A DNA stretch of 64,000 nucleotides from Spiroplasma endosymbiont of Polydrusus cervinus. Lineage in GTDB: Bacteria > Bacillota_I > Bacilli_A > Mycoplasmatales > Mycoplasmataceae. Where the stretch lies: positions 496,001-560,000 of the forward strand of contig NZ_OZ026469.1 in assembly GCF_964019755.1 (NCBI RefSeq), in the 5' to 3' direction. The position numbers and the translations under genes are program-made. The stretch's first letter is position 1, and the number at the start of each line of letters is the position of its first letter. Below the pieces are notes generated by a model. That model saw only the letters and a program-made list of their open reading frames with translations, ran no database searches and had not been told where the DNA came from. Below are positions 851 to 63,905 of this stretch, one piece after another.

Positions 851-881
851 TTTCTTTCCTCCTCATTTTAATTTAGTTCTT

Positions 882-1059
882 GTATACTGTAAAACTAAAT
901 CATAAAAAGTTAATAAAATTATAACAAATTAAAAATAAAAAACAATAATTACAAAAAATATTAAATTAAAAATAATATTTTTAATATTTATTTTTAAAAT
1001 TATAAAATTAAACACAACAAAAAATAAATTTTACTAATCTTAACAAACACTAATTTAAT
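882..1059. repeat. R-end terminal region of IS30-type element
   Basis: Begins TGTATACTGTAAAACTAAAT, the R end found throughout this window, followed by about 150 bp of AT-rich sequence that also occurs inverted at 38444-38615. It lies at the 3' side of the IS30-type transposase remnant, so it is read as that element's long terminal region. Confidence 0.7.
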
Positions 1060-2037
1060 TTAAAAAATTTTTTTAAAATATTGTCTTGATGTAAAATTTT
1101 CCAAGCAAGGTCTAATTATGGTATTTAATATATCTAAAATAGATTTTAATCTACTACGAATATTAATTAATGGCTCATTTTGAGCCAATCAACGCCTTAT
1201 ATCTCTATTTATTCTTTCTACTAATCCTTTCTGGCGAGGTTTACCAGAATCACAAAAATAAACTCTTATTTTAAAGTGTTTTTCTATTGTTTTTCATCTA
1301 TAAAATTCTTTTCCTCTATCGGTTAAAATACAACTAAATTTACTAATACCAATTTATTTAATCATTTTCATTAAAATTGTTAATACAACACTTGCCTTTT
1401 TACTAAATAAAGTATGATAAAAAAGTATTTTTGATTTACGATTTACTAAAACTAACAAATAAAAATTATCACAATCAAGAGTATCCATTTTTCAAATTCC
1501 ACTAAAACTTAAATCATTTCCATAATCATTTAAAAATTGCTTATAATCTCTAATATTAAGTAATTTTCCACGATTATCATTTTGTTCCCCATTTTTTGTT
1601 TTTCTTTTTTTATTTTTAAAATATAACATTTCTTTTTTTAAATTAAAATAACCTAATTTAATATATTTATACATTGTTTTAAAACATACACCAAATTTTA
1701 CATTATATTGTAATTCATACGAAGTAATAATATTTTGTGGCGAACGACCAAAATTATTATATTCATTAGAAAAATGACTTAATTCTTGTGAATTTAACAT
1801 TGAATATTTACGACATTGTTTTTTATTTTTATCATGTATTTCTTTGTGCTTTTGCAGCATTATAATCATTAATATTATCAAACATATTTAACTCTTGCCA
1901 AATAGTTCTAGAATCTCTATTCATTTGCTTAGCAATTTTTCGAATATTAATTGTTCCATTTTTTTAAATAATTCATTATCTTTTAATTTTTCCAAATTTA
2001 CTCTTTCATTAAAATCTAATCTTTCATATTTTTTCAC
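1060..2037 (-). pseudogene. IS30-type transposase, decayed
   Basis: Starts at GTG 2037 behind AGGAGG (a related remnant at 31217 has ATG). The N-terminus MKKYERLDFNERVNLEKLK is followed by an HTH (INIRKIAKQMNRDSRTIW) and a DDE core ending in TDRGKEF and CDSGKPRQKGLVERINR, typical of IS30. Lesions are visible. The frame shifts in the A-run before the HTH and again near 1865, and a TAA replaces CAA at 1354-1356 (the copy at 38131 has CAA there). It should not make active transposase. An IS30-like ORF is known in SpV1 plectroviruses, so a viral origin is possible. Confidence 0.8.
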
Positions 2038-2099
2038 ACTTTACCTCCTAAAATATTTAAAATGTTATAATTATTGTACATAAATTATAACTGTAAATT

Positions 2100-5317: not shown

Positions 5318-5477
5318 TGTAAATTGTAAATACCAAATCATAAAAAGTTAACTATTAATTTAGTTAACTTTTTAAGTTAATTTTTAAGTTAATTATAGGG
5401 GGTTGAAATTATGCAAATAAAGCAATATTTAATTTTGCGGTCGTTAGTAAAAAAGTATGATAAAGATATTGTTTTAA
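5318..5477 (+). mobile_element. L-end mini-element with interrupted 36-codon ORF
   Basis: Starts TGTAAATTGTAAATACCAAA and continues through an AGTTAAC-rich palindrome and a GG-rich SD to ATG 5411 (MQIKQYLILRSLVKKYDKDIV). The ORF is cut by IS3 copy A. The uninterrupted version is at 31429-31648, and the same interruption recurs at 54018-54166. Confidence 0.7.
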
Positions 5478-5546
5478 TAGACTGCACCCAAAAAAGTAAG
5501 TAAAGAAAAAAAGTCTTTGCTAAACTTAAAGGAGGTGCATTTTTAT

Positions 5547-5810
5547 ATGGCAAGAAAAGGACAAAAATTTAATAAATATACAGCATATTTTCGAAAAATG
5601 ATAGTACAAGAGATTAAAAATAATAGTATAAGTTTTATTGCAAAAAAATATCAAATTAATAAAAAAACTGTTGTTTCATGGTATGAAAATTTTAAGAAAG
5701 GAATTTTAAACACCAATAAAGGTCCAAAAGAATCATTTGAAAAAAGAGATTTAAACTATTACAAAGTTAGGTATGAATTACTAAAAAAGCTTCATGACTT
5801 TTACAATTAA
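5547..5810 (+). CDS. IS3-family OrfA, HTH protein (copy A)
   Basis: 87 aa. The start ATG 5547 has AAAGGAGGTG nine bases upstream; the longer upstream frame has no SD. The helix-turn-helix ISFIAKKYQINKKTVVSWYE binds the element ends. The slippery heptamer A AAA AAG at 5783-5789 lies in the correct phase near the end of the gene, as in IS150. A fraction of ribosomes should shift to -1 and make OrfAB, the active transposase. OrfA alone probably represses. Confidence 0.88.
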   Translation: MARKGQKFNKYTAYFRKMIVQEIKNNSISFIAKKYQINKKTVVSWYENFKKGILNTNKGPKESFEKRDLNYYKVRYELLKKLHDFYN

Positions 5811-6670
5811 ATAAAAGAAAAATTGTATTTTTTATCAAAGAAAACATTAATAAATATCCACTAAATTTATTACTTGATATAACAGATTTAAAGCGTAGTT
5901 ATTGAGATAAATATAAAAATTATTCAAGTAATGGTAAGGATAGCGAATCATTAAAAAATATTGTAAAAGTCTATGAAGAAAATTTAAAACAATTTGGTTA
6001 TCGTCGAATTACCAAATATTTAAAAGAAGATTATGGCATTATTTATAATGCTAAGAAAGTATTGCGAATTATGAAAGAAAATAATATTCAAGCTGAATAT
6101 GTAAAGCGTATGCGTAGAAAAATATTAATAAAACAAAATAGAAATAAAAATATAATTAAATATCCTGATTTAGTAAATCGTAATTTTAATTATATTAAAG
6201 AAAGATTTTCAATTTTATTTACTGATGTAACTTATTTAATTTGAAATGGTAAAAAACATTATCAATCAACAATACTTGATGGATGATATACTAAAGAAAT
6301 TATTGATGTAAAATGATCAAAATTTAATAATAACAAACTTGTACTTGATAATTTAAATGATGCAATTAATAAAATTAAAAAAATAAAAAAAGATTTAAAT
6401 AAAATAATAATTCATTCAGATCACGGATATCAATATACATCTAAAGATTACAATAGTAAATGTTTAGATAACAAAATTATAATTTCAATGGGTAAAAATT
6501 ATCATTGTGCAGACAACATTATTATTGAAAGTTTTCATTCATTACTTAAAAAAGGAAGAATCCATAATAAAAATTATAAATCTCATAATGAATATATTAA
6601 TGATGTTAAAAAATGAAATAAATGATATTCAAACCAAAAAGAAAAATATATAATAAATGAAAGTTTGTAA
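5789..6670 (+). CDS. IS3-family OrfB, DDE transposase (copy A)
   Basis: The frame is entered by -1 slippage at 5783-5789 and runs to TAA 6668-6670, about 293 codons with several TGA as Trp. The DDE residues are recognisable in LFTDVTYLIW, HSDHGYQYTS and IIIESFHSLLKKG. It catalyses cut-and-copy of the IS. Relative to copies B and C it has one extra in-frame codon (DGWYTK against DGYTK). No internal nonsense codon is visible. An independent start is unlikely because no SD precedes a suitable ATG. Confidence 0.85.
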
Positions 6671-6708
6671 ACCTTTTTATTAATACTTACTAAACAGGGT
6701 GCAGTCTA

Positions 6709-6955
6709 GACTTAATTCTTTTAATTTTCTTTGTGGTCTAATTTCATTATAAAATTTAATATATTGTGGAATCATTATATATATATATATATATATATAT
6801 TCTTTGTTTCTAAAAATACGTTTTAATGTTTCAAAAAATTCAGTTTTAAAAGTTCCAAATCAAGATTCAGTATGACCATTATCTGGTGAAGATCCTCTTC
6901 GTGACATTGAAATTATTATTCCCAATTTTTTACACAAATTTGTAAATATAAAATT
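6709..6955 (-). pseudogene. 3' fragment of a second IS3-type transposase
   Basis: The reverse strand encodes SRRGSSPDNGHTESWFGTFK and later YIKFYNEIRPQRKLKE, the C-terminal E-region of IS3-group OrfB. This is a different lineage from copies A-C. An (AT)n tract at about 6774-6800 has expanded inside it. The 5' part is missing; it abuts IS3 copy A on one side and a palindromic repeat on the other. Confidence 0.75.
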
Positions 6956-7144
6956 TGTATACTGTAAAACTAAATCATAAAAAGTTAATAAGATTATAAC
7001 AAATTAAAAATAAAAAACAATAATTACAAAAAATATTAAATTAAAAACATTGTTTTTAATTTAATATTTTTTGTAATTATTGTTTTTTATTTTTAATTTG
7101 TTATAATCTTATTAACTTTTTATGATTTAGTTTTACAGTATACA
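6956..7144. repeat. 189-bp palindromic MITE-like element (R/R arms)
   Basis: A near-perfect inverted repeat. Each arm of about 92 bp starts TGTATACTGTAAAACTAAAT and contains the outward promoter-like TATAAT. It is the longest palindromic member of the family here and has no coding capacity. Confidence 0.85.
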
Positions 7145-7150
7145 AAAAAA

Positions 7151-7580
7151 TTATTTACCACATTTACTATCACCTTCATTGATAGTAAACCATTCATCAT
7201 CTATCTTTTGAATAACAAAACTACAATTTTCACACTTACTTAAATCTTCGCCTAAACTTATTAATTTATGCATAATATCTCTACTTTCTAATTTTTTATT
7301 ATATTTTATTTTATTTAAAATAACAATAACAATTATTGAAGAGGAAAATAATAAAGAAAACAAACTTGAAATATATATTTGTATTTGATTTGTTAAGACA
7401 CCATAAATAATTCAAATAATAGAATTTAAAAAAATAAAAAACAAGGTTATTTTTGATAGAGATTTTGTATTTTTTTGTATTAATACTTTAATTGTTTGCG
7501 GTAATAACGTTATTAAACTAGTAACAAAACCAATTCAAGCTATAATATCAATTAATATTTCTTTTATATTTTAAACTTCA
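7151..7580 (-). pseudogene. SemiSWEET / PQ-loop membrane protein, start damaged
   Basis: About 140 codons. Three membrane helices with WIGFVTSLITLLPQTIKVL (PQ-loop), KSLSKITLFFIFLNSIIW and a third hydrophobic stretch match the SemiSWEET half-transporter fold, whose members move sugars as dimers. A C-terminal cytosolic tail has paired Cys (CENC, KCGK). The ATG at 7580, just after the parA stop, runs out of frame unless one A is restored in the A-run at about 7570, so it is called broken; a non-ATG start cannot be excluded. It is the last gene of a plasmid-like par operon. Substrate unknown. Confidence 0.6.
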
Positions 7581-8993: not shown

Positions 8994-9132
8994 TGTATAC
9001 TGTAAAAATAAATCATAAAAAGTTAATAAAATTAAACACAACAAAAAATAAATTTTACTAATCTTAACAAACATTTATTTTTTGTTGTGTTTAATTTTAT
9101 TAACTTTTTATGATTTATTTTTACAGTATACA
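8994..9132. repeat. 139-bp palindromic element (R/R arms)
   Basis: Near-perfect inverted repeat starting TGTATACTGTAAAAATAAAT and ending in its complement. Its inner sequence (TTAAACACAACAAAAAATAA) matches the inner part of the IS30 terminal region at about 1005-1060. The host bases CTG and CAG at its edges extend the palindrome. It lies just downstream of rpmF. Confidence 0.8.
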
Positions 9133-11073: not shown

Positions 11074-11090
11074 ATAATATTGTATACTGT

Positions 11091-11187
11091 AAAACTAAAT
11101 CATAAAAAGTTAGTAAAATTATAACAAATTAAAAATAAAAAAACACTTTATGAAAAATAAAGTGTTGCATTTGGTTTACAATATACA
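11091..11187. repeat. 97-bp mini-element (R/R ends)
   Basis: Starts TGTATACTGTAAAACTAAAT and ends GGTTTACAATATACA, a diverged inverted R end. The centre holds the azoR terminator hairpin (11142-11166). Confidence 0.65.
11142..11166 (-). terminator. Terminator of azoR
   Basis: Reverse strand reads AACACTTTAT, a short loop, then AAAGTGTT followed by a T-run. It lies 24 bases after the azoR stop, inside a mini-element. Confidence 0.65.
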
Positions 11188-11857: not shown

Positions 11858-11890
11858 TGTAAACTGTAAATACCAAATCATAAAAAGTTA
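11858..11890 (+). repeat. L-end fragment
   Basis: TGTAAACTGTAAATACCAAA followed by the shared TCATAAAAAGTTA; it breaks off into a long hairpin at 11895. Confidence 0.65.
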
Positions 11891-11967: not shown

Positions 11968-12105
11968 CAATAATTTATAGATTAATTAGACTGCACCCAA
12001 AAAAGTAAGTAAAGAAAAAAGTCTTTGCTAAACTTTAGACTGCACCCAAAAAAGTAAGTAAAGAAAAAAAGTCTTTGCTAAACTTTAGAGGAGGTGCATT
12101 TTTAT

Positions 12106-12369
12106 ATGGCAAAAAAAGGACAAAAATTTAATAAATATACAGCATATTTTCGAAAAATAATAGTACAAGAGGTTAAAAATAATAGTATAAGTTTTATTGC
12201 AAAAAAATATCAAATTAATAAAAAAACTGTTGCTTCATGGTATGAAAATTTTAAGAAAGGAATTTTAAACACCAATAAAGGTCCAAAAGAATCATTTGAA
12301 AAAAGAGATTTAAACTATTACAAAGTTAGGTATGAATTACTAAAAAAGCTTCATGACTTTTACAATTAA
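12106..12369 (+). CDS. IS3-family OrfA (copy B)
   Basis: 87 aa, start ATG 12106 behind GAGGAGGTG. Same HTH as copy A with small changes (MAKKGQ, FRKIIVQEVKN, TVASWYE). Slippery A AAA AAG at 12342-12348. The frame is intact. Confidence 0.88.
   Translation: MAKKGQKFNKYTAYFRKIIVQEVKNNSISFIAKKYQINKKTVASWYENFKKGILNTNKGPKESFEKRDLNYYKVRYELLKKLHDFYN
12226..12348 (+). other. placeholder: see orfB copy B entry at 12348-13226
   Basis: Coordinates invalid by clerical slip; the OrfB of copy B is annotated in the next entry. Ignore this line. Confidence 0.
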
Positions 12370-13226
12370 ATAAAAGAAAAATTGTATCTTTTATCAAAGA
12401 AAACATTAATAAATATCCACTAAATTTATTACTTGATATAACAGATTTAAAGCGTAGTTATTGAGATAAATATAAAAATTATTCAAGTAATGGTAAGGAT
12501 AGCGAATCATTAAAAAATATTGTAAAAGTCTATGAAGAAAATTTAAAACAATTTGGTTATCGTCGAATTACCAAATATTTAAAAGAAGATTATGGCATTA
12601 TTTATAATGCTAAGAAAGTATTGCGAATTATGAAAGAAAATAATATTCAAGCTGAATATGTAAAGCGTATGCGTAGAAAAATATTAATAAAACAAAATAG
12701 AAATAAAAATATAATTAAATATCCTGATTTAGTAAATCGTAATTTTAATTATATTAAAGAAAGATTTTCAATTTTATTTACTGATGTAACTTATTTAATT
12801 TGAAATGGTAAAAAACATTATCAATCAACAATACTTGATGGATATACTAAAGAAATTATTGATGTAAAATGATCAAAATTTAATAATAACAAACTTGTAA
12901 TTGATAATTTAAATGATGCAATTAATAAAATTAAAAAAATAAAAAAAGATCTAAATAAAATAATAATTCATTCAGATCACGGATATCAATATACATCTAA
13001 AGATTACAATAGTAAATGTTTAGATAACAAAATTATAATTTCAATGGGTAAAAATTATCATTGTGCAGACAACATTATTATTGAAAGTTTTCATTCATTA
13101 CTTAAAAAAGGAACAATCCATAATAAAAATTATAAATCTCATAATGAATATATTAATGATGTTAAAAAATGAAATAAATGATATTCAAACCAAAAAGAAA
13201 AATATATAATAAATGAAAGTTTGTAA
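12348..13226 (+). CDS. IS3-family OrfB transposase (copy B)
   Basis: Read after -1 slippage, ends TAA 13224-13226, about 292 codons. DDE motifs FTDVTYLIW, HSDHGYQYTS and IIESFHS are all present and no internal TAA/TAG is visible. It lacks the extra codon of copy A. Likely a functional enzyme although the element's right end is altered. Confidence 0.85.
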
Positions 13227-13295
13227 ACCTTTTTATTAATACTTACTAAACGGGGTGCAGTATAAATAACATAATTAAAACTTTTACTTGCTCAA

Positions 13296-24168: not shown

Positions 24169-24225
24169 TGTATAATGTAAAACTAAATCATAAAAAGTTA
24201 ATAAAATTATAACAAATTAAATATT
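24169..24225. repeat. Degenerate R-end fragment
   Basis: TGTATAATGTAAAACTAAAT followed by the shared CATAAAAAGTTAATAAAATT. It borders the phage-derived block. Confidence 0.6.
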
Positions 24226-25023: not shown

Positions 25024-25049
25024 ATCCTACTTCATTGTACATTATACAA

Positions 25050-25134
25050 TTTAATATTTTTTGTAATTATTGTTTTTTATTTTTAATTTGTTATAATTTT
25101 ATTAATTTTTTATGATTTAGTTTTACAGTATACA
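25050..25134 (+). promoter_or_regulatory. R-end arm with outward promoter upstream of tkt
   Basis: A complete long R arm ending GTTTTACAGTATACA at 25134. It contains TTGTTT (25070-25075), 16 bp, TATAAT (25092-25097), pointing to tkt whose ATG is 62 bases after the -10. No other promoter is evident between the terminator and tkt. Confidence 0.6.
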
Positions 25135-25158: not shown

Positions 25159-27132
25159 ATGAAAAAATCGATTGATACAATTAAAATGTTGGGAGTTGAA
25201 GCAATTAATAAAGCAAATTCAGGTCATCCAGGAATTGTTCTTGGGGCGGCACCAATGGCCTATACTTTATTTACAAGACATTTAGTTGTTAATCCACAAG
25301 TAGATAAATGAACAAATCGTGATTGATTTGTTTTGGCAGCTGGGCATGGGAGTGTTTTATTATATAGTTTATTGCATTTATCAGGTTTTGATCTTAATAT
25401 TGATGATTTACGCAATTTTCGCCAAGTTGTCTCAATTACTCCTGGCCATCCTGAATCACATTTAACTCCCGGAGTTGATGTTACAACTGGTCCGCTTGGA
25501 CAAGGAATTGCAACGGCAGTAGGATTAGCCTTGGCAGAAACTCAATTAGCAGCAAAATACAATACAAAAAAATATCCGATTTATAATCATTATACTTATG
25601 TTATATGTGGTGATGGTGATTTACAAGAAGGTGTTACACAAGAAGCAATTTCTTTAGCGGGACATTGAAAATTAAATAAATTAATTGTTTTATTTGATTC
25701 AAATGATGTGCAATTAGATAATATGGTTAATGTTGCGCAAAGTGAAAATATTGGAAATCGTTTTAAAGCAGCGAATTGAAATTATCTTTTTGTTAAAGAT
25801 GGTAATGATGTTGAAGAAATTGACCAAGCAATTATTAAAGCGAAAAAAAGTGATAAACCAACTTTAATTGAAGTAAAAACTATTATTGGTTATGGTGCAA
25901 CTAAACAAGGAACACCGGCAGTTCATGGTGCCCCATTAGGAGCTGATATTGATACAATTCGCAAAATGCTAAAATGAAACTACAAACCATTTGAAGTTCC
26001 TAATGAAGTATATGATGATTTTGATGTTAATGTTAAACAACGGGGAATTAATAAGCATGATAAATGATTAAAAATGTATCAGGGATTTTGCAAAGAAAAT
26101 CCAGCCTTAGGGAAAGAACTTGATGATGCAGTTTATGGTAATTTTAATTTTAATCCGCAAGATTTGCGTGATTTAAAACCAATTAAAGCCCAAGCAACAC
26201 GGATTAGTAGTGGAGCAATTCTTGATCGTCTTTCAAATATGATTCCAAGTTTAATTGGAGGTAGTGCTGATTTAAGTGGCAGTACTAAAGCAAAAGGTGC
26301 TGATGGCGTTTATAGTGTTGAAAATCGTAAAGGGCGTAATTTAGCATATGGGGTCCGTGAATTTGCAATGGCCGCCATTAATAATGGAATTTGTCTTCAT
26401 CGCGGATTAACACCTTTTGCAAGTGGATTCTTTGTTTTTGCGGATTATATGAAACCAGCAATTCGGTTAAGTTCATTAATGGAAATCCCCGTTATTTATG
26501 TGTTATCCCATGATTCAATTGCTGTTGGTGGAGATGGACCAACTCATCAACCAATTGAACAATTGGCAATGTTGCGTAGTCAACCAAATTTAAATGTTTT
26601 TCGTCCCGCTGATTTTAATGAAACATTAGGGGCTTATCATACAGCTTTACAAACAAAGCATACGCCAAGTGTTATTTTAATTACTCGGCAAGATTTACCA
26701 GAATTAGAACATTCAAATGTTGAAATGGTTAAAAAAGGAGCTTATCAAGTCTATGGTGAAGATAATAACAATGATGTTGTATTATTAGCAACAGGTAGTG
26801 AAGTAAGCATGGCTATTGCTGTGGCGCAAAAATTGGAGCATGATAAAAAAATTAAAGTAAAGGTCGTATCAATGCCATGTTGAGAATTATTAGAACAACA
26901 AGATGCTGAGTATAAAACAAAATTATTAGAACCAAACGCTCTAATTGCTTCAATTGAATTAGGAACAACTTTTGGATGAGAACGTTATACTTCAAATAAG
27001 GGGTTAAATTTTGGAATTAATACATTTGGCCAATCAGGCCCATTCCAAGATGTTTTAGAATATTTTGGCTTTAATGTTGAAAATATTGTTAATGCTATTG
27101 TAAATTTTAAATACCAAATCATAAAAAGTTAA
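25159..27132 (+). CDS. tkt: Transketolase
   Basis: 657 aa with many TGA as Trp; ATG 25159 behind AAAAGGAAA. N-terminal [40 protein letters not shown], the thiamine diphosphate motif [14 protein letters not shown], then the pyrimidine domain [20 protein letters not shown] and [20 protein letters not shown]. It moves two-carbon units in the non-oxidative pentose phosphate pathway. The last ten residues (NFKYQIIKS) and the stop come from a palindromic repeat, so the native tail is lost or lay nearby. Length is normal. Probably transcribed from the R-end promoter. Confidence 0.96.
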
Positions 27133-27178
27133 CTATTAATTTAGTTAACTTTTTATGATTTGGTATTTAAAATTTACA
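27099..27178. repeat. 80-bp palindromic element (L/L arms)
   Basis: Perfect palindrome TGTAAATTTTAAATACCAAA ... complement, with a central TTAACTATTAATTTAGTTAA. It overlaps the 3' ends of convergent tkt and apt and supplies a stop codon to each. Confidence 0.85.
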
Positions 27179-31127: not shown

Positions 31128-31217
31128 TATTCCATTTTCCTTTTTAAATAATTCATTATCTTTTAATTTTTCCAAATTTACTCTTTCATTAAAATCTAAT
31201 CTTTCATATTTTTTCAT
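31128..31217 (-). pseudogene. 5' fragment of the IS30-type transposase
   Basis: Encodes MKKYERLDFNERVNLEKLK as at 2037, starting ATG 31217 behind TAGGAGG, and breaks off into the IS3 fragment. Confidence 0.75.
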
Positions 31218-31224
31218 ACTTTAC

Positions 31225-31290
31225 CTCCTAAAATATTTAAAATGCTATAATTATTGCACATAAATTATAGCATTTTAAATATTTTAGGAG
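31225..31290. repeat. 66-bp palindrome with SD on both strands
   Basis: CTCCTAAAATATTTAAAATG and its exact reverse complement flank ATAATTATTGCACATAAATTAT. The arm is the leader of the IS30 transposase, so each side offers TAGGAG to its neighbour. The following 31291-31428 encodes a peptide (IGLKATSRTSLISCEKPNN) without a start. Confidence 0.65.
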
Positions 31291-31428
31291 CAATCGGATT
31301 AAAAGCAACAAGTAGAACATCATTAATTAGTTGCGAAAAACCAAATAATAGTGAAAACGGCAAGTAATAAACCAGAACCCAAACAACAGCAATCACCAGT
31401 TGGAAGTAATTGAAAGTTAATTGAAAAT

Positions 31429-31648
31429 TGTAAATTACACGGGATAATTTATTCTTTACTTTTTAATTTCAATATCATTTGCAATCTTATTGACAGTATT
31501 AATAACAATATCTTTACCATACTTTTTCACTAACGACCGCAAAATTAAATATTTCTTTATTTGCATAATTTCAACCTCCTATAATTAACTTAAAAAAAGT
31601 TAACTAAATTAATAGTTAACTTTTTATGATTTAGTTTTACAGTATACA
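31429..31648 (-). mobile_element. 220-bp mini-element carrying an intact 36-codon ORF
   Basis: On the reverse strand it begins with R end TGTATACTGTAAAACTAAAT, continues with the AGTTAAC palindrome, SD and ORF, and ends with an L-type TGTAAATTAC inverted at 31429. Two further copies (5318, 54018) are truncated by IS3. Confidence 0.7.
31456..31566 (-). CDS. 36-aa basic protein of the mini-element
   Basis: ATG 31566 behind TAGGAGG; the product runs from MQIKKYLILRSLVKKYG through VINTVNKIANDIEIKK to TAA 31456-31458. Small, basic and helical by composition. The same start region is kept at 5411 and 54099, which argues for selection or recent copying. Function unknown; could be a phage or transposon accessory protein. 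Confidence 0.5.
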   Translation of the reverse strand: MQIKKYLILRSLVKKYGKDIVINTVNKIANDIEIKK

Positions 31649-35525: not shown

Positions 35526-35685
35526 TTTTTTTCAAAAAAAGGAAGCAACAAAACAATTAGTTAATGAATGTGAATTGCAAAAAGCTGAACAATCAAGGAC
35601 ACATTTATTAGACGAAGAAATTTTAATTGATGAATTATTTTTGTATACTGTAAAACTAAATCATAAAAAGTTAATAAAATTATAA
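35512..35685 (+). CDS. Small protein truncated by palindromic repeat
   Basis: ATG 35512 overlaps the thiI end and has AAGGA upstream. It runs [20 protein letters not shown] to DELF, then the repeat's own codons [13 protein letters not shown] and TAA at 35683-35685. The first 43 residues are host-encoded and highly charged, resembling a short linker protein of unknown family. The original gene probably continued past the insertion point. Confidence 0.5.
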   Translation: MKKTSFFQKKEATKQLVNECELQKAEQSRTHLLDEEILIDELFLYTVKLNHKKLIKL

Positions 35686-35763
35686 CAAATTAAAAATATT
35701 GCTTTTTATTTTTAATTTGTTATAATTTTATTAACTTTTTATGATTTAGTTTTACAGTATACA
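35642..35763. repeat. 122-bp palindromic element (R/R arms) before relA
   Basis: TGTATACTGTAAAACTAAAT arms around a short centre. The flanks AATTATTTTT and AAAAATAATT extend the palindrome by 10 bp on each side. The right arm carries TTGCTT (35699-35704), 16 bp, TATAAT (35721-35726) towards relA. Confidence 0.85.
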
Positions 35764-38066: not shown

Positions 38067-38130
38067 AGTGCCATCTTCCTTATTTTCTTGGTATAATATA
38101 TTTATGCTTTGGCATTTACAATTTACAAAA

Positions 38131-38443
38131 ATGATTAAACAAATTGGTATTAGTAAATTTAGTTGTATTTTAACCGATAGAGGAAAATAATTTTATAGAT
38201 GAAAAACAATAGAAAAACATTTTAAAATAAGAGTTTATTTTTGTGATCCTGGTAAAACCTCGCAAGAAAGCATTAGTAGAAAGAATAAATAGAGATATAA
38301 GGCGTTGATTGGGTCAAAATGAGCCATTAATTAATATTCGTAGTAGATTAAAATCTATTTTAGATATATTAAATACCAGAATTAGACCTTGCTTGAAAAA
38401 CTTTACATCAAGACAATATTTTAAAAAAATTTTTTTAAGTTAA
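38131..38443 (+). pseudogene. 3' fragment of IS30-type transposase
   Basis: Starts inside the gene at IKQIGISKFSCILTDRGK; GAA is replaced by TAA, and an extra A in GGTAAAACC shifts the frame, after which VERINRDIRRWLGQNEPL follows. An inverted L end (TTGGCATTTACAATTTACA, 38110-38128) directly abuts its 5' side. Confidence 0.8.
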
Positions 38444-38615
38444 ATTAGTGTTTGTTAAGATTAGTAAAATTTATTTTTTTGTGTTTAATTTTATAATTTT
38501 AAAAATAAATATTAAAAACAATATTTTTAATTTAATTTTTTTTGTGATTATTGTTTTTTATTTTTAATTTGTTATAATTTTATTAACTTTTTATGATTTA
38601 GTTTTACAGTATACA
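38444..38615 (+). promoter_or_regulatory. IS30 terminal region with outward promoter
   Basis: Inverted copy of 882-1059. TTGTTT (38551-38556), 16 bp, TATAAT (38573-38578) point to the membrane-protein gene at 38640. The region ends ACAGTATACA. Confidence 0.6.
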
Positions 38616-39900: not shown

Positions 39901-39960
39901 TGTATACTGTAAAACTAAATCATAAAAAGTTAATAAAATTATAACAAATTAAAAATAAAA
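39901..39960. repeat. Single R end fused to the lysS leader
   Basis: TGTATACTGTAAAACTAAAT through CAAATTAAAAATAAAA, immediately followed by AGGAG and the lysS ATG at 39973. The arm points away, so its TATAAT reads upstream. Confidence 0.75.
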
Positions 39961-39972
39961 AGGAGAATTAAA

Positions 39973-41475
<1,503 letters not shown>

Positions 41476-41529: not shown

Positions 41530-41835
41530 TTACGAGAAACAGTCGAAGCGATTAGTTTAATTAAATGCGAATTAGTTCGTCGTTTTATTATTCAATTTAA
41601 TTTATTAAAAGTTGATGCATCTTTAATTACTCGTGAAGAAAAAGGTTTGAATGATGATTTTCGGATGACAGAATGACCAATTGATTGTAATATTTCACCG
41701 ATTAATTTAGTGGGCAAAATATTACAATCACATAATAAATAACGCCGAAATGCAATTAAACAATATGAATTGTTAGAAAACAAAGGAATTCTAACAACAG
41801 CAATGGTTTTACGCCGTGATATCAAACAATCAAAT
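41530..41835 (+). pseudogene. asnA: Aspartate-ammonia ligase fragment
   Basis: Encodes LRETVEAISLIKCELVRRF, FNLLKVDASLITREEKGLND and RRNAIKQYELLENKGILTTA, the N-terminal third of AsnA. A TAA (41740-41742) replaces Trp/Lys in the usual HSLAKWKR region (SHNK*RR). The 5' end is lost and the 3' end is cut by an R-end repeat. Asparagine would have to be imported unless a full copy exists elsewhere. Confidence 0.7.
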
Positions 41836-41866
41836 AACTTTTTATGATTTAGTTTTACAGTATACA
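41836..41866. repeat. R-end tip
   Basis: AACTTTTTATGATTTAGTTT then TACAGTATACA; it truncates asnA and lies just before the SD of the next gene. Confidence 0.7.
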
Positions 41867-48410: not shown

Positions 48411-48535
48411 TGTATACTGTAAAACTAAATCATTTCCATAATCATTTAAAAATTGGTTATAATCTCTAATATTAAGTAATTTTCCATGATTATCATTTTG
48501 TTCCCCATTTTATGATTTGGTATTTACAATTTACA
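48411..48535. mobile_element. Mini-element made by internal deletion of IS30-type element
   Basis: R end TGTATACTGTAAAACTAAAT at the left, inverted L end GGTATTTACAATTTACA at the right. In between are only about 80 bp that match transposase positions 1512-1592. The left junction lies in TAAATCAT, present both in the R end and in the gene, so microhomology deletion is likely. Confidence 0.8.
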
Positions 48536-49418: not shown

Positions 49419-49462
49419 TTATAATTTTATTAACTTTTTATGATTTAGTTTTACAGCATACA
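49419..49462. repeat. R-end fragment
   Basis: TTATAATTTTATTAACTTTT then ...TTTTACAGCATACA, between the acetyltransferase remnant and rpmE. One base differs in the tip. Confidence 0.7.
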
Positions 49463-49883: not shown

Positions 49884-49961
49884 TGTATACTGTAAAACTA
49901 AATCATAAAAAGTTAACTAAATTAATAGTTAACTTTTTATGATTTAGTTTTACAGTATACA
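49884..49961. repeat. 78-bp palindromic element (R/R tips)
   Basis: TGTATACTGTAAAACTAAAT arms around AGTTAACTAAATTAATAGTT. It overlaps the end of the lipoprotein gene and provides its stop. A separate hairpin AAAGATTATTAAATAATCTT lies at 49856-49876. Confidence 0.85.
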
Positions 49962-51110: not shown

Positions 51111-51176
51111 TATTTTATTCTCCTTTAATTTTATTTTAATAAATTTTTGCTAAATAAGCAGTAGCAAAATTGGTAA

Positions 51177-51195
51177 TTTAGTTTTACAGTATACA
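51177..51195. repeat. R-end tip
   Basis: TTTAGTTTTACAGTATACA, between ysxC and the lipoprotein promoter region. Confidence 0.55.
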
Positions 51196-53437: not shown

Positions 53438-53560
53438 TGTATACTATAAAAATAAATCATAAAAAGCTAATAAAATTATAACAAATTAAAAATAAAAAAC
53501 AATAATCACAAAAAATATTAAATTAAAAATATTTTTTTAATATTTATTTTTAAAATGGCG
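53438..53560. repeat. R-end terminal region, diverged
   Basis: TGTATACTATAAAAATAAAT followed by the AT-rich long arm as at 882-1000. From 53560 to 53727 no gene is seen. Confidence 0.7.
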
Positions 53561-53727
53561 TTGTGTAGATACAAACGGCAAATTTATATCTTGTTAAATT
53601 AATAATAAAATATTTTTAATAAATTACAACCATTTTCTCAAAAAAAAATAAATTTTTGTTATTTTATTTTATTTTAAGTATATTTAAGCACACTGAAAAA
53701 TAATTTATTAATTTTAAACTAATAAAT

Positions 53728-54017
53728 TTATTTAATATTTTGTAAAAACATTGCTTTTGCACTTATTCAATTCAAACACGGTCGGAGTTTATCATTTATA
53801 ACATTAACTACTCAATCTATCATTTTTTGACTAACATTATTAAAATCTGTTCCCTTGGGAAGTCAATATCTAAATTCGCCATTCATATGTTCAATTAATG
53901 GTTTTTGTTGTGGTTTACCAGGATCACAAAAATAAACTTGTGTTTCAGAAAATATTTCCATTTCTCTCCATTTACTAAATTCTTTCCCGCGGTCTGTTAT
54001 TATTCCTTTCATTTTCC
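53728..54017 (-). pseudogene. IS30-type transposase 2, 3' part
   Basis: Reverse strand encodes KGIITDRGKEFSKW, VYFCDPGKPQQKPLIEHMN and a C-terminus ending MFLQNIK, TAA 53728-53730. It is a different subfamily from the remnant at 1060-2037. It is separated from its 5' part (55397-56076) by 1379 bp of inserted DNA. Confidence 0.8.
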
Positions 54018-54166
54018 TGTAAATTGTAAATACCAAATTATAAAAAGTTAACTAAATTAATAGTTAACTTTTTAAGTTAATTATAGGAGGTTGAAATTAT
54101 GCAAATAAAGCAATATTTAATTTTGCGGTCGTTAGTAAAAAAGTATGATAAAGATATTGTTATTAA
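54018..54166 (+). mobile_element. L-end mini-element, interrupted 36-codon ORF (second case)
   Basis: TGTAAATTGTAAATACCAAA, AGTTAAC palindrome, SD TAGGAGG and ATG 54099 (MQIKQYLILRSLVKKYDKDI). Cut at GTTATTAA by IS3 copy C, the same point as at 5477. No right half follows the IS. Confidence 0.75.
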
Positions 54167-54237
54167 TAGACTGCACCCAAAAAAGTAAGTAAAGAAAAAA
54201 AGTCTTTGCTAAATTTTTATAGGGGGTGCATTTTTAT

Positions 54238-54501
54238 GTGGCAATAAAAGGACAAAAATTTAATAAATATACAGCATATTTTCGAAAAATGATAGTACAA
54301 GAGGTTAAAAATAATAGTATAAGTTTTATTGCAAAAAAATATCAAATTAATAAAAAAACTGTTGCTTCATGGTATGAAAATTTTAAGAAAGGAATTTTAA
54401 ACACCAATAAAGGTCCAAAAGAATCATTTGAAAAAAGAGATTTAAACTATTACAAAGTTAGGTATGAATTACTAAAAAAGCTTCATGACTTTTACAATTA
54501 A
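54238..54501 (+). CDS. IS3-family OrfA (copy C)
   Basis: Same protein as copy A, but the start is changed to GTG (54238, VAIKGQKF) with AGGGGGTG upstream. HTH intact; slippery A AAA AAG at 54474-54480. Confidence 0.82.
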   Translation: MAIKGQKFNKYTAYFRKMIVQEVKNNSISFIAKKYQINKKTVASWYENFKKGILNTNKGPKESFEKRDLNYYKVRYELLKKLHDFYN

Positions 54502-55358
54502 ATAAAAGAAAAATTGTATCTTTTATCAAAGAAAACATTAATAAATATCCACTAAATTTATTACTTGATATAACAGATTTAAAGCGTAGTTATTGAGATA
54601 AATATAAAAATTATTCAAGTAATGGTAAGGATAGCAAATCATTAAAAAATATTGTAAAAGTCTATGAAGAAAATTTAAAACAATTTGGTTATCGTCGAAT
54701 TACCAAATATTTAAAAGAAGATTATGGCATTGTTTATAATGCTAAGAAAGTATTGCGAATTATGAAAGAAAATAATATTCAAGCTGAATATGTAAAGCGT
54801 ATGCGTAGAAAAATATTAATAAAACAAAATAGAAATAAAAATATAATTAAATATCCTGATTTAGTAAATCGTAATTTTAATGATATTAAAGAAAGATTTT
54901 CAATTTTATTTACTGATGTAACTTATTTAATTTGAAATGGTAAAAAACATTATCAATCAATAATACTTGATGGATATACTAAAGAAATTATTGATGTAAA
55001 ATGATCAAAATTTAATAATAACAAACTTGTAATTGATAATTTAAATGATGCAATTAATAAAATTAAAAAAATAAAAAAAGATTTAAATAAAATAACAATT
55101 CATTCAGATCACAGACATCAATATACATCTAAAGATTACAATAGTAAATGTTTAGATAACAAAATTATAATTTCAATGGGTAAAAATTATCATTGTGCAG
55201 ACAACATTATTATTGAAAGTTTTCATTCATTACTTAAAAAAGGAACAATCCATAATAAAAATTATAAATCTCATAATGAATATATTAATGATGTTAAAAA
55301 ATGAAATAAATGATATTCAAACCAAAAAGAAAAATATATAATAAATGAAAGTTTGTAA
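54480..55358 (+). CDS. IS3-family OrfB transposase (copy C)
   Basis: -1 frame to TAA 55356-55358. DDE motifs are present, but the second reads HSDHRHQYTS where copies A and B have HSDHGYQYTS, and NFNDIKERF replaces NFNYIKERF. These changes near the catalytic Asp may reduce activity. Confidence 0.8.
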
Positions 55359-55396
55359 ACCTTTTTATTAATACTTACTAAACAGGGGGCAGTCTA

Positions 55397-56076
55397 TTTA
55401 AATTTTGTTACAATTTCGCTAGCACTATGATTTTTTAATTTCACTGCAAAGTAATTGTTACTTGACTGTTCAACTAATACCAAACAACTAGATTGGTAGT
55501 GTTTTCCCACAACAGTATCCATTTCAAATCAACCAACATCAGTCTCTTTATTTTCAATATCTCATATTGATTTAAAATTAATTAATTTTCCACGATTATC
55601 ATTTTGTTTTGTTTTATATTTTTTACCACGATGAGGAAAATTTTCTTTTCTTAACCCTAATTTTCCTAAACGAATTAATTTATATAAAGCTTTAACACAA
55701 ATAGGAAATTTAACACCAAATTTTATAAAATAACGATAAATCAATTATTGGGGTGTATCGTGGTATTTATTAAATCTTGTTTTAATAAAATCTAACTGAT
55801 CTTTTGTAAATTCAGGTATTTTTTTAATACATTTTTTACGCTTTTGTTTATAATCTTTGTGAGCATCTGATGGCTTATAATCTTGTATATTTTTAAATCG
55901 CTTAATTTCTCTTTTAACAGTATTAATCCCGCGACCCATTTGTCTTGCTATTTCAGATAAATTAATCGTGCCATTTTTCTTTTTACAAGTATCAGATAAT
56001 AATAAATCCTTAAAAAATCTCGTTCATCAAATATTAAATGTTTAAATTTTTTTATTTTTATACAAATTACCTTCAT
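55397..56076 (-). pseudogene. IS30-type transposase 2, 5' part
   Basis: ATG 56076 (MKVICIKIKKFKHLIFDERD), then a frame change before the HTH (INLSEIARQMGRGINTVKRE). A TAA at 55745-55747 follows YHDTPQ. The sequence runs to WFEMDTVVGKHYQSS and EIVTKFK, where the insertion begins. Broken in three ways. Confidence 0.8.
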
Positions 56077-56812: not shown

Positions 56813-56844
56813 TGTATACTGTAAAACTAAATCATAAAAAGTTA
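56813..56844. repeat. R-end tip
   Basis: TGTATACTGTAAAACTAAAT plus CATAAAAAGTTA. It truncates the 5' side of the repeat-protein remnant. Confidence 0.7.
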
Positions 56845-58062: not shown

Positions 58063-58280
58063 ATTGTAAATACCAAATGTTTTTTATTTTATGTCTACTT
58101 TTTGGGCATCGTTCCATCACACAAGAATTGTTTTTTTGCCGGTTCATCGTACAGGACGTCATTTTAAAAATAAATATTAAAAACAATATTTTTAATTTAA
58201 TATTTTTTGTAATTATTGTTTTTTATTTTTAATTTGTTATAATTTTATTAACTTTTTATGATTTAGTTTTACAGTATACA
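58058..58280. mobile_element. 223-bp composite element upstream of hpt, with outward promoter
   Basis: L end TGTAAATTGTAAATACCAAA, a piece of the GTACGATGA hairpin arm (about 58120-58157), then the IS30 terminal region and R end ...ACAGTATACA. TTGTTT (58216-58221), 16 bp, TATAAT (58238-58243) point to hpt. Confidence 0.75.
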
Positions 58281-58308: not shown

Positions 58309-58896
58309 ATGAAGATACATCCCCTTGTGAAAGAAGTTTTAATTACTACTGAAGAAATTTACCAAAAATGTTTTGAATTAGGTCAAAAAATTAGCCATTA
58401 TTATTTTAATGAACATCCAGCTCAAGATAATACGATTTTATGTTTAGGTCTATTAAAAGGATGTATACCTTTTATGGCGAAACTTATTCCTCAATTAGTT
58501 GGCGTTGAATGTGAAACTGAATATATGGTTGTTTCATCTTATTTTGGCGGGGTTAAAAGCAATGACACACCACAAATTTTACTTGATTTACCAATGCCGA
58601 TAACAAATCGTGATATTTTATTAGTCGAAGATATTATTGATAGTGGTAAAACAATTAAAATGATAAAAGACTACTTATATCTCAAAGGAGCACGAAGTGT
58701 TAAAGTTGTTACTTTATTAGATAAGAAAGCCGGTCGTAAAGTAGACTTAGTTGCTGATTGGTATGGGTTTGATGTTCCACCGGCTTTTTTAATTGGTTTT
58801 GGATTAGATTACCAAGAACGATTACGAAATTTACCATATATTGCGATTGCTAATCAGGATAAAATAAAAAACTGAAAATGAACAACAAAAAGATAA
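58309..58896 (+). CDS. hpt: Hypoxanthine phosphoribosyltransferase
   Basis: 195 aa with TGA as Trp at the end (NWKWTTKR); GTGAGG upstream of ATG 58309. LCLGLLKGCIPFMAKLI, the flexible loop SSYFGGVKSN, and the PRPP motif ILLVEDIIDSGKTI, then YGFDVPPAFLIGFGLDYQER. Converts hypoxanthine or guanine with PRPP to IMP/GMP. With apt broken at 27174-27684 this is the purine-salvage enzyme kept here. Normal length. Confidence 0.94.
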
Positions 58897-61771: not shown

Positions 61772-63355
61772 AAAGGAAAAGATATTTTAGGTTTATTGGG
61801 TGTTAAAGAATTAAATATTGTTTTATTAAATTATCTGACTTATCGTTATAATTATGATCGCAAATTTCAAGGTGCAAAATATGATGAAAAAGGTAATCCT
61901 ACCAATAAAGCAGCAGAATTACGTCAAAAATTTGAAGGACAAAAATCCGAAGATGTTATTGATGGTTTATTTGAAAACTGAAAATTAGATAATTCAACAT
62001 CTATTAACGAAAATGCTGTCAAAACATTTAAGCAAATTATCTATATGCTTTCAAATTATACATATAGTAAATACGCCATTAATAAAGGTTATAATGATGA
62101 TGTTAAATTAATTGCTCCATATTATTTTTAATTAATTTCAACTCCCAATAAAATAGAAGAGGGTTATTGAGAATTTAAAGATTGCAATGTTAAATTGTTT
62201 TCATCTTATTTTGAATTTTATGGTGGTAACAATCCTATTATAAATTATTGAAAAGAAGTTTATGCAAATGATAAAGTATTTAATCAAGTAGATAATAAAT
62301 GATATTTTGCTGTTTGACGCGGTATTTATAAGAATAATATAACTAATTGAAGAATTATTAAATTTAAACACAATGAATTAAAAAATAAAACTGTAGATAG
62401 TTATGATACGTATAAATTAAATTTAATTTGAATTTGATACCCTTTTTCTTGGTGATATGATATTGGAATAGAAACTAAACAAGGGGGATTTAGTGCGTGA
62501 TGATTTGAAACATACCCAAATATTAAATCTGTTTATCGCTGAGATGGTGATGGCGAACCAAATACACCAGAAATTGATTTTAAAACAGTAAAAATTACAG
62601 ATTGAAATTTAAAAAATCAAAATAATATAATTAACAATAATGATGAAATTAAAGTAACCGTTAAAAACAAAGATATTTCAGAAAATCCTATTTATCAATT
62701 AGAAAGCAATTATTTTAATTGATTATCAATGACAAATGAATTAGAAACAAATAATATATCTTCACTTATTCCGGCAGAAATTAAATTATCTGATGGTGAA
62801 TATGGTAAATATTTAACTAATTTAATTGTTTCTAATTACAAAATAAAAAAATTATTAAATTTATTTTCTACAATAAAAAATAGTCTTTATTCTAAATTAA
62901 AATGAATAAATTTAATTAATCACGTAAATGAGAACTTTGTTAAATTATCTTTTTTACAAAGCATTAATATTTTAAATCAAATTGAAATATCAGCAATATG
63001 AGGTTATGGAAATTATGATATAAATATTTTTATTGAAAAACCAAATGAAAAAATTATTGCAGGAAAAGATATAAATTTAGAATTAATTAAAAGTTGTCCT
63101 ATTGGAACCAAAGTTAGTGGAGTTAAGGATAGAAATACATATCTTATATTAATTGAAGATGATATATGATATTTATATAAAAATGGTATTGAAGATGAAA
63201 AATCTTATTCAAATAAAGCGGTTGCTGATTTTTTAAAACAATCAAATAGTGTAATATTTTCTTATTTGCCAAAAAAAGAACAAATTGAAATTAATAATTT
63301 AAAACTATTTAATAAGAATAACGAAAAATTATCATTGATTACATTAGAAATATAA
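61688..63355 (+). pseudogene. Large phage/surface-type protein with internal stop and lipoprotein-like domain
   Basis: Open from 61688 but without a clear start; possibly fused originally to the preceding frame. First part SNESFLPWSIAKDYIKGKDI and NYLTYRYNYDRKFQGAKYDE. A TAA at 62129-62131 follows APYYF; then ISTPNKIEEGYWEFKDC. Residues encoded at 62279-62588 (WYFAVWRGIYKNN, WIWYPFSWWYDIGIETK) are nearly identical to the convergent lipoprotein at 63384-63905. The rest, about 255 codons to TAA 63353-63355, is polar and Asn/Lys-rich. Function unknown. Confidence 0.45.
62279..62588 (+). repeat. 310-bp inverted repeat, left copy
   Basis: Matches 63410-63719 in reverse orientation with only a few mismatches (for example GACGCGG against GACGTGG). 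Both copies are coding and in the same reading frame. Confidence 0.85.
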
Positions 63356-63356
63356 A

Positions 63357-63384
63357 AAGAAGTTAATAAAATATTTAACTTCTT
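63357..63384. terminator. Bidirectional terminator
   Basis: Stem AAGAAGTTAA / TTAACTTCTT with T-run on each strand between the two convergent genes. Confidence 0.75.
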
Positions 63385-63905
63385 TAATTATTTTGATTTA
63401 TAATTTTTCCTGTTTTAAAATCAATTTCTGGTGTATTTGGTTCGCCATCACCATCTCAGCGATAAACAGATTTAATATTTGGGTATGTTTCAAATCATCA
63501 CGCACTAAATCCCCCTTGTTTAGTTTCTATTCCAATATCATATCACCAAGAAAAAGGGTATCAAATTCAAATTAAATTTAATTTATACGTATCATAACTA
63601 TCTACAGTTTTATTTTTTAATTCATTGTGTTTAAATTTAATAATTCTTCAATCAGTTATATTATTCTTATAAATACCACGTCAAACAGCAAAATATCATT
63701 TATTATCAACCTTATTAAATTGTTTTTCTTGTGATGATATTCATTCTAAAGCACCATCTTTTGTTTTTATATTGTTTTTATCTTTTAGTTCTTTTAATTG
63801 TTCTTCGGTATAGGTATATTGTTGTGGTTTATTACAAGCAATTAAACTTGTTGTACTTGTTCCAATTAAAGTGATAGTTCCTAAAAAACTTAATATTTTT
63901 TTCAT
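63384..63905 (-). CDS. Lipoprotein with Trp-rich domain
   Basis: 173 aa; ATG 63905. Signal MKKILSFLGTITLIGTS... with a good lipobox LIAC-NK (Cys about 24). A short Lys/Glu-rich segment (YTEEQLKELKDKNN) is followed by the Trp/Tyr-rich domain DNKWYFAVWRGIYKNN ... YRWDGDGEPNTPEIDFKTGK. Many TGA codons are Trp. The domain is encoded by the right 310-bp repeat (63410-63719). Membrane-anchored surface protein; role unknown. Confidence 0.75.
63410..63719 (-). repeat. 310-bp inverted repeat, right copy
   Basis: Inverted partner of 62279-62588, separated from it by 821 bp. Confidence 0.85.

Follow-up and report, generated by a model that had tools for sequence, protein, structure and literature searches.

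Single-end palindromes derived from a plectrovirus-type provirus, and their position at rearrangement joints, in a Spiroplasma endosymbiont

The 1.12-Mb chromosome of the Spiroplasma endosymbiont of Polydrusus cervinus (G000) carries, at 6956..7144 of the 64,000-nucleotide stretch analysed here (the window; chromosome positions 496001-560000, translated with code 4), a 189-bp palindrome with arms that are identical across 60 nt, and the question raised by this locus is how such palindromes arise. An earlier note had read them as a MITE family mobilised by an IS30-type transposase or by an SpV1-borne relative. The elements are built from two kinds of end, R (TGTATACTGTAAAACTAAATCATAAAAAGTTA) and L (TGTAAATTGTAAATACCAAATCATAAAAAGTTA). 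An exhaustive mismatch scan counted 31 ends of type R or L in the window, with an end at every coordinate where that note had placed one, and 232 ends (155 R and 77 L) in the 475 kb sampled out of the 1121 kb of this genome, on which the palindrome anatomy is based; the same scan yielded zero ends in a base-shuffled control of 164 kb. The 12-mer CATAAAAAGTTA, common to R and L, occurs 28 times versus 3.5 times expected (≤1 mismatch), and the 20-nt R tip occurs 234 times genome-wide (≤2 mismatches) versus 0 times for reversed controls. The part shared by L and R, i.e., the terminal inverted repeat, measures about 33 bp, and the remainder of the R arm is R-specific; a remark that the ends, at about 90 bp, are unusual for IS30 falls because the true inverted repeat is this short. 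Relatives used for comparison include G012, G003, G013 (a Spiroplasma phoeniceum MAG of 2.18 Mb) and G001.

The arm classes in the window are mixed, as had been proposed. In addition to 6956..7144, R/R palindromes are located at 8994..9132 (139 bp, with 4 bp of symmetry past the tips; both from the mismatch scan and arm comparison) and 35642..35763 (122 bp, with symmetry 9 bp past the tips), and an L/L palindrome of 80 bp is located at 27099..27178. The palindrome at 49884..49961 (78 bp) is real as well and is a hybrid, in which an L-type core carries R tips. These elements, like a 125-bp unit of R tip, transposase piece and L tip at 48411..48535 (mismatch scan), are given without strand. Solo tips are found at 881, 5318, 11081, 11858, 24169, 25134, 31648, 38615, 39901, 41866, 49462, 51195, 53438, 54018, 56813 and 58280. 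Larger remnants include an R end with the R-side part of a provirus-derived element, which lacks an L end and has a broken IS30-type transposase gene (881..2091, plus strand; 88% to the G012 provirus at 760764-761981, transposase match with 2 TAA), an L end fragment that retains its hairpin and is truncated by an adjoining rve-type IS (5318..5479, plus; matching G012 766535-766686, tip exact), an R end with a diverged element interior (53438..53997, plus) and an L end fragment (54018..54168, plus), the last two from G012 alignment and the mismatch scan. Two further fragments are on the minus strand, one an L-side piece that spans the internal deletion junction described below and has an R tip on an L body (31130..31648), the other an L fragment plus an R-side fragment at a locus that is contiguous in G012 and G003 (38106..38615). 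Smaller pieces comprise a solo R arm truncated on its inner side (11081..11150, plus) and, from the mismatch scan, a solo L tip (11858..11890, plus), a solo R arm (24169..24220, plus) and solo R tips at 49431..49462 (minus), 51164..51195 (minus) and 56813..56844 (plus). R tips on L cores were observed at window 31617-31648 and 49884-49961 and at G000:C1 748853, and this tip exchange apparently ran through the shared AAATCATAAAAAGTTAA box. An rve-type IS distinct from the R/L element, with ends TAGACTGCACCC, is present in three near-identical copies adjoining L ends (window 5480-6717, 12025-13265 and 54156-55405). Outside the R/L family, window 62265-63733 contains a 344-bp inverted repeat pair (96%) spaced by 781 bp.

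R and L bound a provirus of the Spiroplasma plectrovirus type, which uses its own IS30-family transposase and, in relatives, is flanked by 3-bp target duplications. Proviruses of the relatives measure 5.9-7.7 kb; in G013, R/L tips bound a 7.7-kb provirus in tandem (GAA-R..L-GAA-R..L-GAA), and a 5.9-kb copy in G012, with an L-like tip on its R end, has AAG at either side (AAG-R..L-AAG). Genes of the G013 provirus include those for a protein resembling Spiroplasma phage ORF1, for the plectrovirus ORF9 capsid family and for DUF2649 and DUF3627, and its transposase passes the NCBIfam transpos_IS30 (NF033563) cutoff (E 3.1e-42) and also matches Pfam rve. The earlier attribution of the ends to an IS30-type transposase and a plectrovirus relative was thus correct, with SpV1-family genes alongside that transposase. 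The same protein families and an IS30-type transposase in a Spiroplasma filamentous phage are found in Vespertiliovirus (Plectroviridae; SpV1-R8A2B and relatives), from which the element differs in that its transposase is only about 35% identical to that of SpV1-R8A2B and in that the sampled G000 copies lack every phage gene but the transposase. A similarity search of phage records with the R arm returned zero matches, probably due to low complexity and divergence. Sharing of the tips with SpV1-R8A2B was considered and found unsupported, the tips being absent from the 5.7 kb of its genome examined. In the G013 tandem, the L and R tips are 3 bp apart (L-GAA-R), i.e., abutted ends with a spacer as in IS30, which agrees with a circular transposition intermediate, as the encapsidated circular genome of Vespertiliovirus has been described (PMC8295915). 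With IS30-family IS the element shares the transposase family, the 3-bp target duplication, the inverted repeats of about 33 bp and the spacing of the tandem tips; unlike them, it is phage-derived through deletion, has inner hairpins by both ends and yields single-end palindromes. Two MITE-like R-L copies of about 535-555 bp in G001 (L009 and L014) have perfect 3-bp duplications, ACC and ATA; the R/L end pair is therefore mobile in a non-autonomous form as well, and to this extent the idea of mobilised mini-elements holds.

In the sampled half of G000, one deletion was followed by spread of an R-transposase-L unit. Copies align to G012 760764-762187 fused directly to 766468-766687, and at least 21 copies in the 475 kb have the identical junction of this 4.28-kb internal deletion, after which a unit of about 1.6 kb remains. 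The deleted phage interior gave 0 matches in the same 475 kb, and no phage structural genes were found there between ends; together with the common junction, this indicates that one ancestral deletion took out the phage genes. Most copies are broken, with at least one retaining an uninterrupted transposase frame in code 4. Few retain 3-bp duplications (ATA in L050 and one further agreement in the mismatch-scan set), and among full R-L copies the target duplication is kept in about 1 of 12.

The palindromes show an anatomy of their own. Among 36 clean palindromes analysed in the 475 kb, L/L forms measure about 80 bp (one of 186), R/R forms about 100-351 bp, and three are 78-bp forms in which the L core is bounded by R tips or by shortened tips. 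Arms compared with each other differ at 22 of 1735 nt, with 17 of the 22 mismatches within two atypical palindromes, and private variants are common to both arms of one palindrome. At G000:C1 463991 and 472736, which have near-identical flanks, one palindrome has T in both arms and the other A in both; this is direct evidence that arm-to-arm copying followed duplication of the locus. A third near-identical flank context is found at G000:C1 478654, the three R/R palindromes differing symmetrically and by a central deletion, and this trio represents a natural test of arm conversion. In the R/R palindrome at G000:C1 340950-341300, both arms contain a 37-nt unit repeated three times in tandem, with no difference between the sides. 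L/L palindromes are centred on a 14-bp hairpin immediately internal to L. Folding of the L end is stronger than that of shuffles (z -3.0), the R-end hairpin did not exceed shuffles in the same comparison, and R/R centres vary among inverted repeats of the AT-rich R arm.

Two readings of this anatomy have to be weighed, namely that single ends gave rise to the palindromes secondarily, by fold-back copying, which we favour, and that they are true MITEs with two functional ends, inserted in IS30 fashion, whose duplications were erased by homologous recombination among hundreds of copies and whose arms are kept identical by conversion. The palindromes are short and non-coding and carry the terminal inverted repeats of a known transposon, as MITEs do; the MITE reading is further favoured by their complete ends with respected tips, by the R-L elements of G001, by the location of elements generally at breakpoints and by identical L/L copies at several loci. 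Against it, a 3-bp target duplication was found at 0 of 34 palindromes (0.55 expected by chance), although this count alone does not exclude transposition followed by recombination, because full R-L copies have mostly lost their duplications too. Copies of the 189-bp R/R form differ mutually in outer haplotype and/or centre, contrary to the notion of one palindrome family. Flank symmetry past the tips also speaks against it, averaging 2.8 bp versus 0.66 bp permuted, with 0 of 10,000 permutations as high. The inverted copy nearly always reaches the tip, the two exceptions being a nested L/L palindrome and a spurious match, and it often overshoots (by 4-13 bp in many palindromes, 13 bp being the maximum). 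Distribution across the genus also argues against MITEs. The R tip is present in 4 of 13 other Spiroplasma members (2-11 copies, ≤3 mismatches), with no R/R-forming pair among the listed R-tip copies of these 13 species, and the L/L core, which occurs more than 30 times in G000, has only three matches elsewhere in the 13 species, all ordinary L ends. Since no comparable palindromes were found in the 13 species, including those with the transposase, palindromisation would be specific to the G000 lineage, to which palindrome formation appears limited from these sequence comparisons. We regard the MITE reading as unlikely, albeit one that deserves real weight: a random template switch should sometimes stop inside an arm, yet the copy essentially never does, which hints that the tip itself, and thus the transposase, matters. 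The tip-respecting arms are thereby also compatible with participation of the transposase, or with true palindrome transposition followed by recombination.

SpV1-associated rearrangement has been the topic of earlier work, and the location of the ends relative to chromosome breakpoints was assessed by comparison with G012; G003 has the same adjacencies at the places checked. At 70 of 155 G000 block edges, an outward-facing R or L tip is no further than tens of bases away. In the window, an R arm at 39901..39962 (plus; ORF start at 39973) links two blocks that are separate in relatives, an R tip at 41835..41866 (minus) stands at a block edge, and several synteny block edges are also capped by the TAGACTGCACCC-ended IS. 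The palindromes behave likewise: the flanks of the L/L palindrome at 27099..27178 map to G012 716.8 kb and 773.6 kb, those of the R/R palindrome at 35642..35763 to 1028.4 kb and 773.6 kb, and those of the hybrid at 49884..49961 to 33 kb and 1007.6 kb. Altogether, of the 14 palindromes with both flanks mapped, 13 connect loci that lie at a distance from each other in two relatives, a result that loses some weight because this genome is scrambled as a whole and R-L elements are often at breakpoints too; the remaining one (829646-829723) sits within a colinear locus that lacks about 57 bp. Comparison of orthologous loci, which the earlier note had suggested, thus pointed to breakpoints more than to empty-site insertions and, with the missing duplications, does not support its view that the palindromes spread as MITEs by transposition.

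The broken sides of lost adjacencies bear on a further possibility, i.e., inversion between two directly oriented R-L elements broken at their end hairpins, from which R/R and L/L palindromes would arise together, with two elements per palindrome. The lost G012 adjacencies 773586|773636, 744443|744517, 1192814|1192947, 769960 and 1237514|1237554 have one side capped by R and the opposite side by L, the pattern expected if an R-L insertion was later torn apart, and at the first of these an R/R palindrome stands on one broken side and an L/L palindrome on the other, as inversion predicts; the R|L pairs at the four others are similar. However, other lost adjacencies have R at both sides, and the shared private variants are unlike two independent ends unless conversion was complete, so that we consider inversion improbable. 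With R|R alongside R|L caps, the caps leave the mechanism undecided, and there are too few cases for partner-cap statistics to separate the models. At 138241, the left flank is ancestral up to the tip, and the right flank matches its relative as far as TCCT, beyond which it repeats the left flank in inverted orientation; fold-back copying plus a microhomology join would be expected to leave such a scar.

With regard to genes, R tips favour upstream regions far more than L tips do, and L tips favour gene 3' ends. An ORF start lies within 120 nt outward of 52 of 155 R tips versus 7 of 77 L tips (Fisher p 3e-5), and of about 5% of random positions; window examples are the R arms at 25048..25134 (minus), which points at a transketolase start at 25159 and has a synteny block edge as its outer flank, and at 58161..58280 (minus), which points at an ORF start at 58309. 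Four R/R palindromes lie between two gene starts and four L/L palindromes between two gene ends. An outward TTGnnn-(15-19)-TATAAT motif is present in 92 of 154 R arms; when 6900-7200 was scanned with a more stringent consensus, promoter-like sites were no more frequent than in shuffles. These sequence features are consistent with R ends as putative promoters and L hairpins as putative terminators. The bias might also suggest that the palindromes originated as host regulatory repeats, i.e., bidirectional promoters or terminators with no tie to mobility, but the relatives carry the same ends as exact provirus termini with target duplications, and copies are very numerous in G000 versus none to few elsewhere; we therefore rejected this origin as most improbable, with a co-opted role being possible.

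Taken as a whole, the account that we favour, from provirus ends through one deletion and spread to single-end palindromes, rejoining and arm copying, seems to us reasonably probable. The provirus integrates via its own IS30-family transposase, making 3-bp target duplications, as the relatives show; in this lineage, the 4.28-kb deletion stripped the remaining phage genes, and the 1.6-kb unit multiplied in the manner of an insertion sequence and then mostly decayed, as the sampled half of the genome shows. During replication or repair, a strand may fold back on a hairpin or inverted repeat adjacent to R or L on the inner side, so that this end is copied outward, across the tip plus 0-13 bp of the flank; the copied end would be rejoined, often at microhomology and usually to a distant locus, and later arm-to-arm copying would hold the two arms nearly identical. 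We infer the fold-back and microhomology steps from the anatomy, counting in their favour the identical arms, the shared private variants, the symmetry past the tips, the scar at 138241 and the distant joins of 13 of 14 palindromes. R, with its outward promoter-like motif, may be tolerated or useful before genes, and L, with its hairpin, after genes, and the junctions may persist partly for this reason; the positional bias is observed, and a regulatory function is what it suggests. Fold-back inversion with microhomology template switching is likewise a hairpin-primed inverted duplication joined to a distant site (PMC3907307, PMC7467729), and the examples found are eukaryotic and large, unlike the bacterial forms of about 80-350 bp at phage ends found here.

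Palindromic MITEs of other bacteria include Correia/nemis, RUP and the Cardinium MITE, which are likewise small, non-coding, present in high copy number and made of transposon ends; by contrast, the palindromes described here duplicate one end only, without target duplications, and stand at rearrangement joints. In the accessible literature, with most subscription journals outside its scope, we found no description of the transposase-only derivative, of recurrent single-end palindromes or of the bias of R to gene starts and L to gene ends. The link between phage and scrambling in Spiroplasma is not new because rearrangement by plectrovirus repeats was already suspected in a study that reported reduced recA in S. 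citri and S. melliferum and blamed plectrovirus fragments for the scrambling (PMC3563533). Our findings bear on an open puzzle, namely how Spiroplasma genomes become scrambled despite the reported reduction of recA: many breakpoints are located at phage ends, and their anatomy suggests a route possibly independent of homologous recombination. One clade displays a fossil series that is rarely seen, from whole phage through transposase-only transposon to bare ends, and suggests a simple path by which phage ends become host regulatory sequence. Tentatively, hairpin-bearing phage termini might be recurrent generators of fold-back, microhomology-joined chromosome rearrangements in a bacterium, with the joints kept as suppliers of promoters and terminators.
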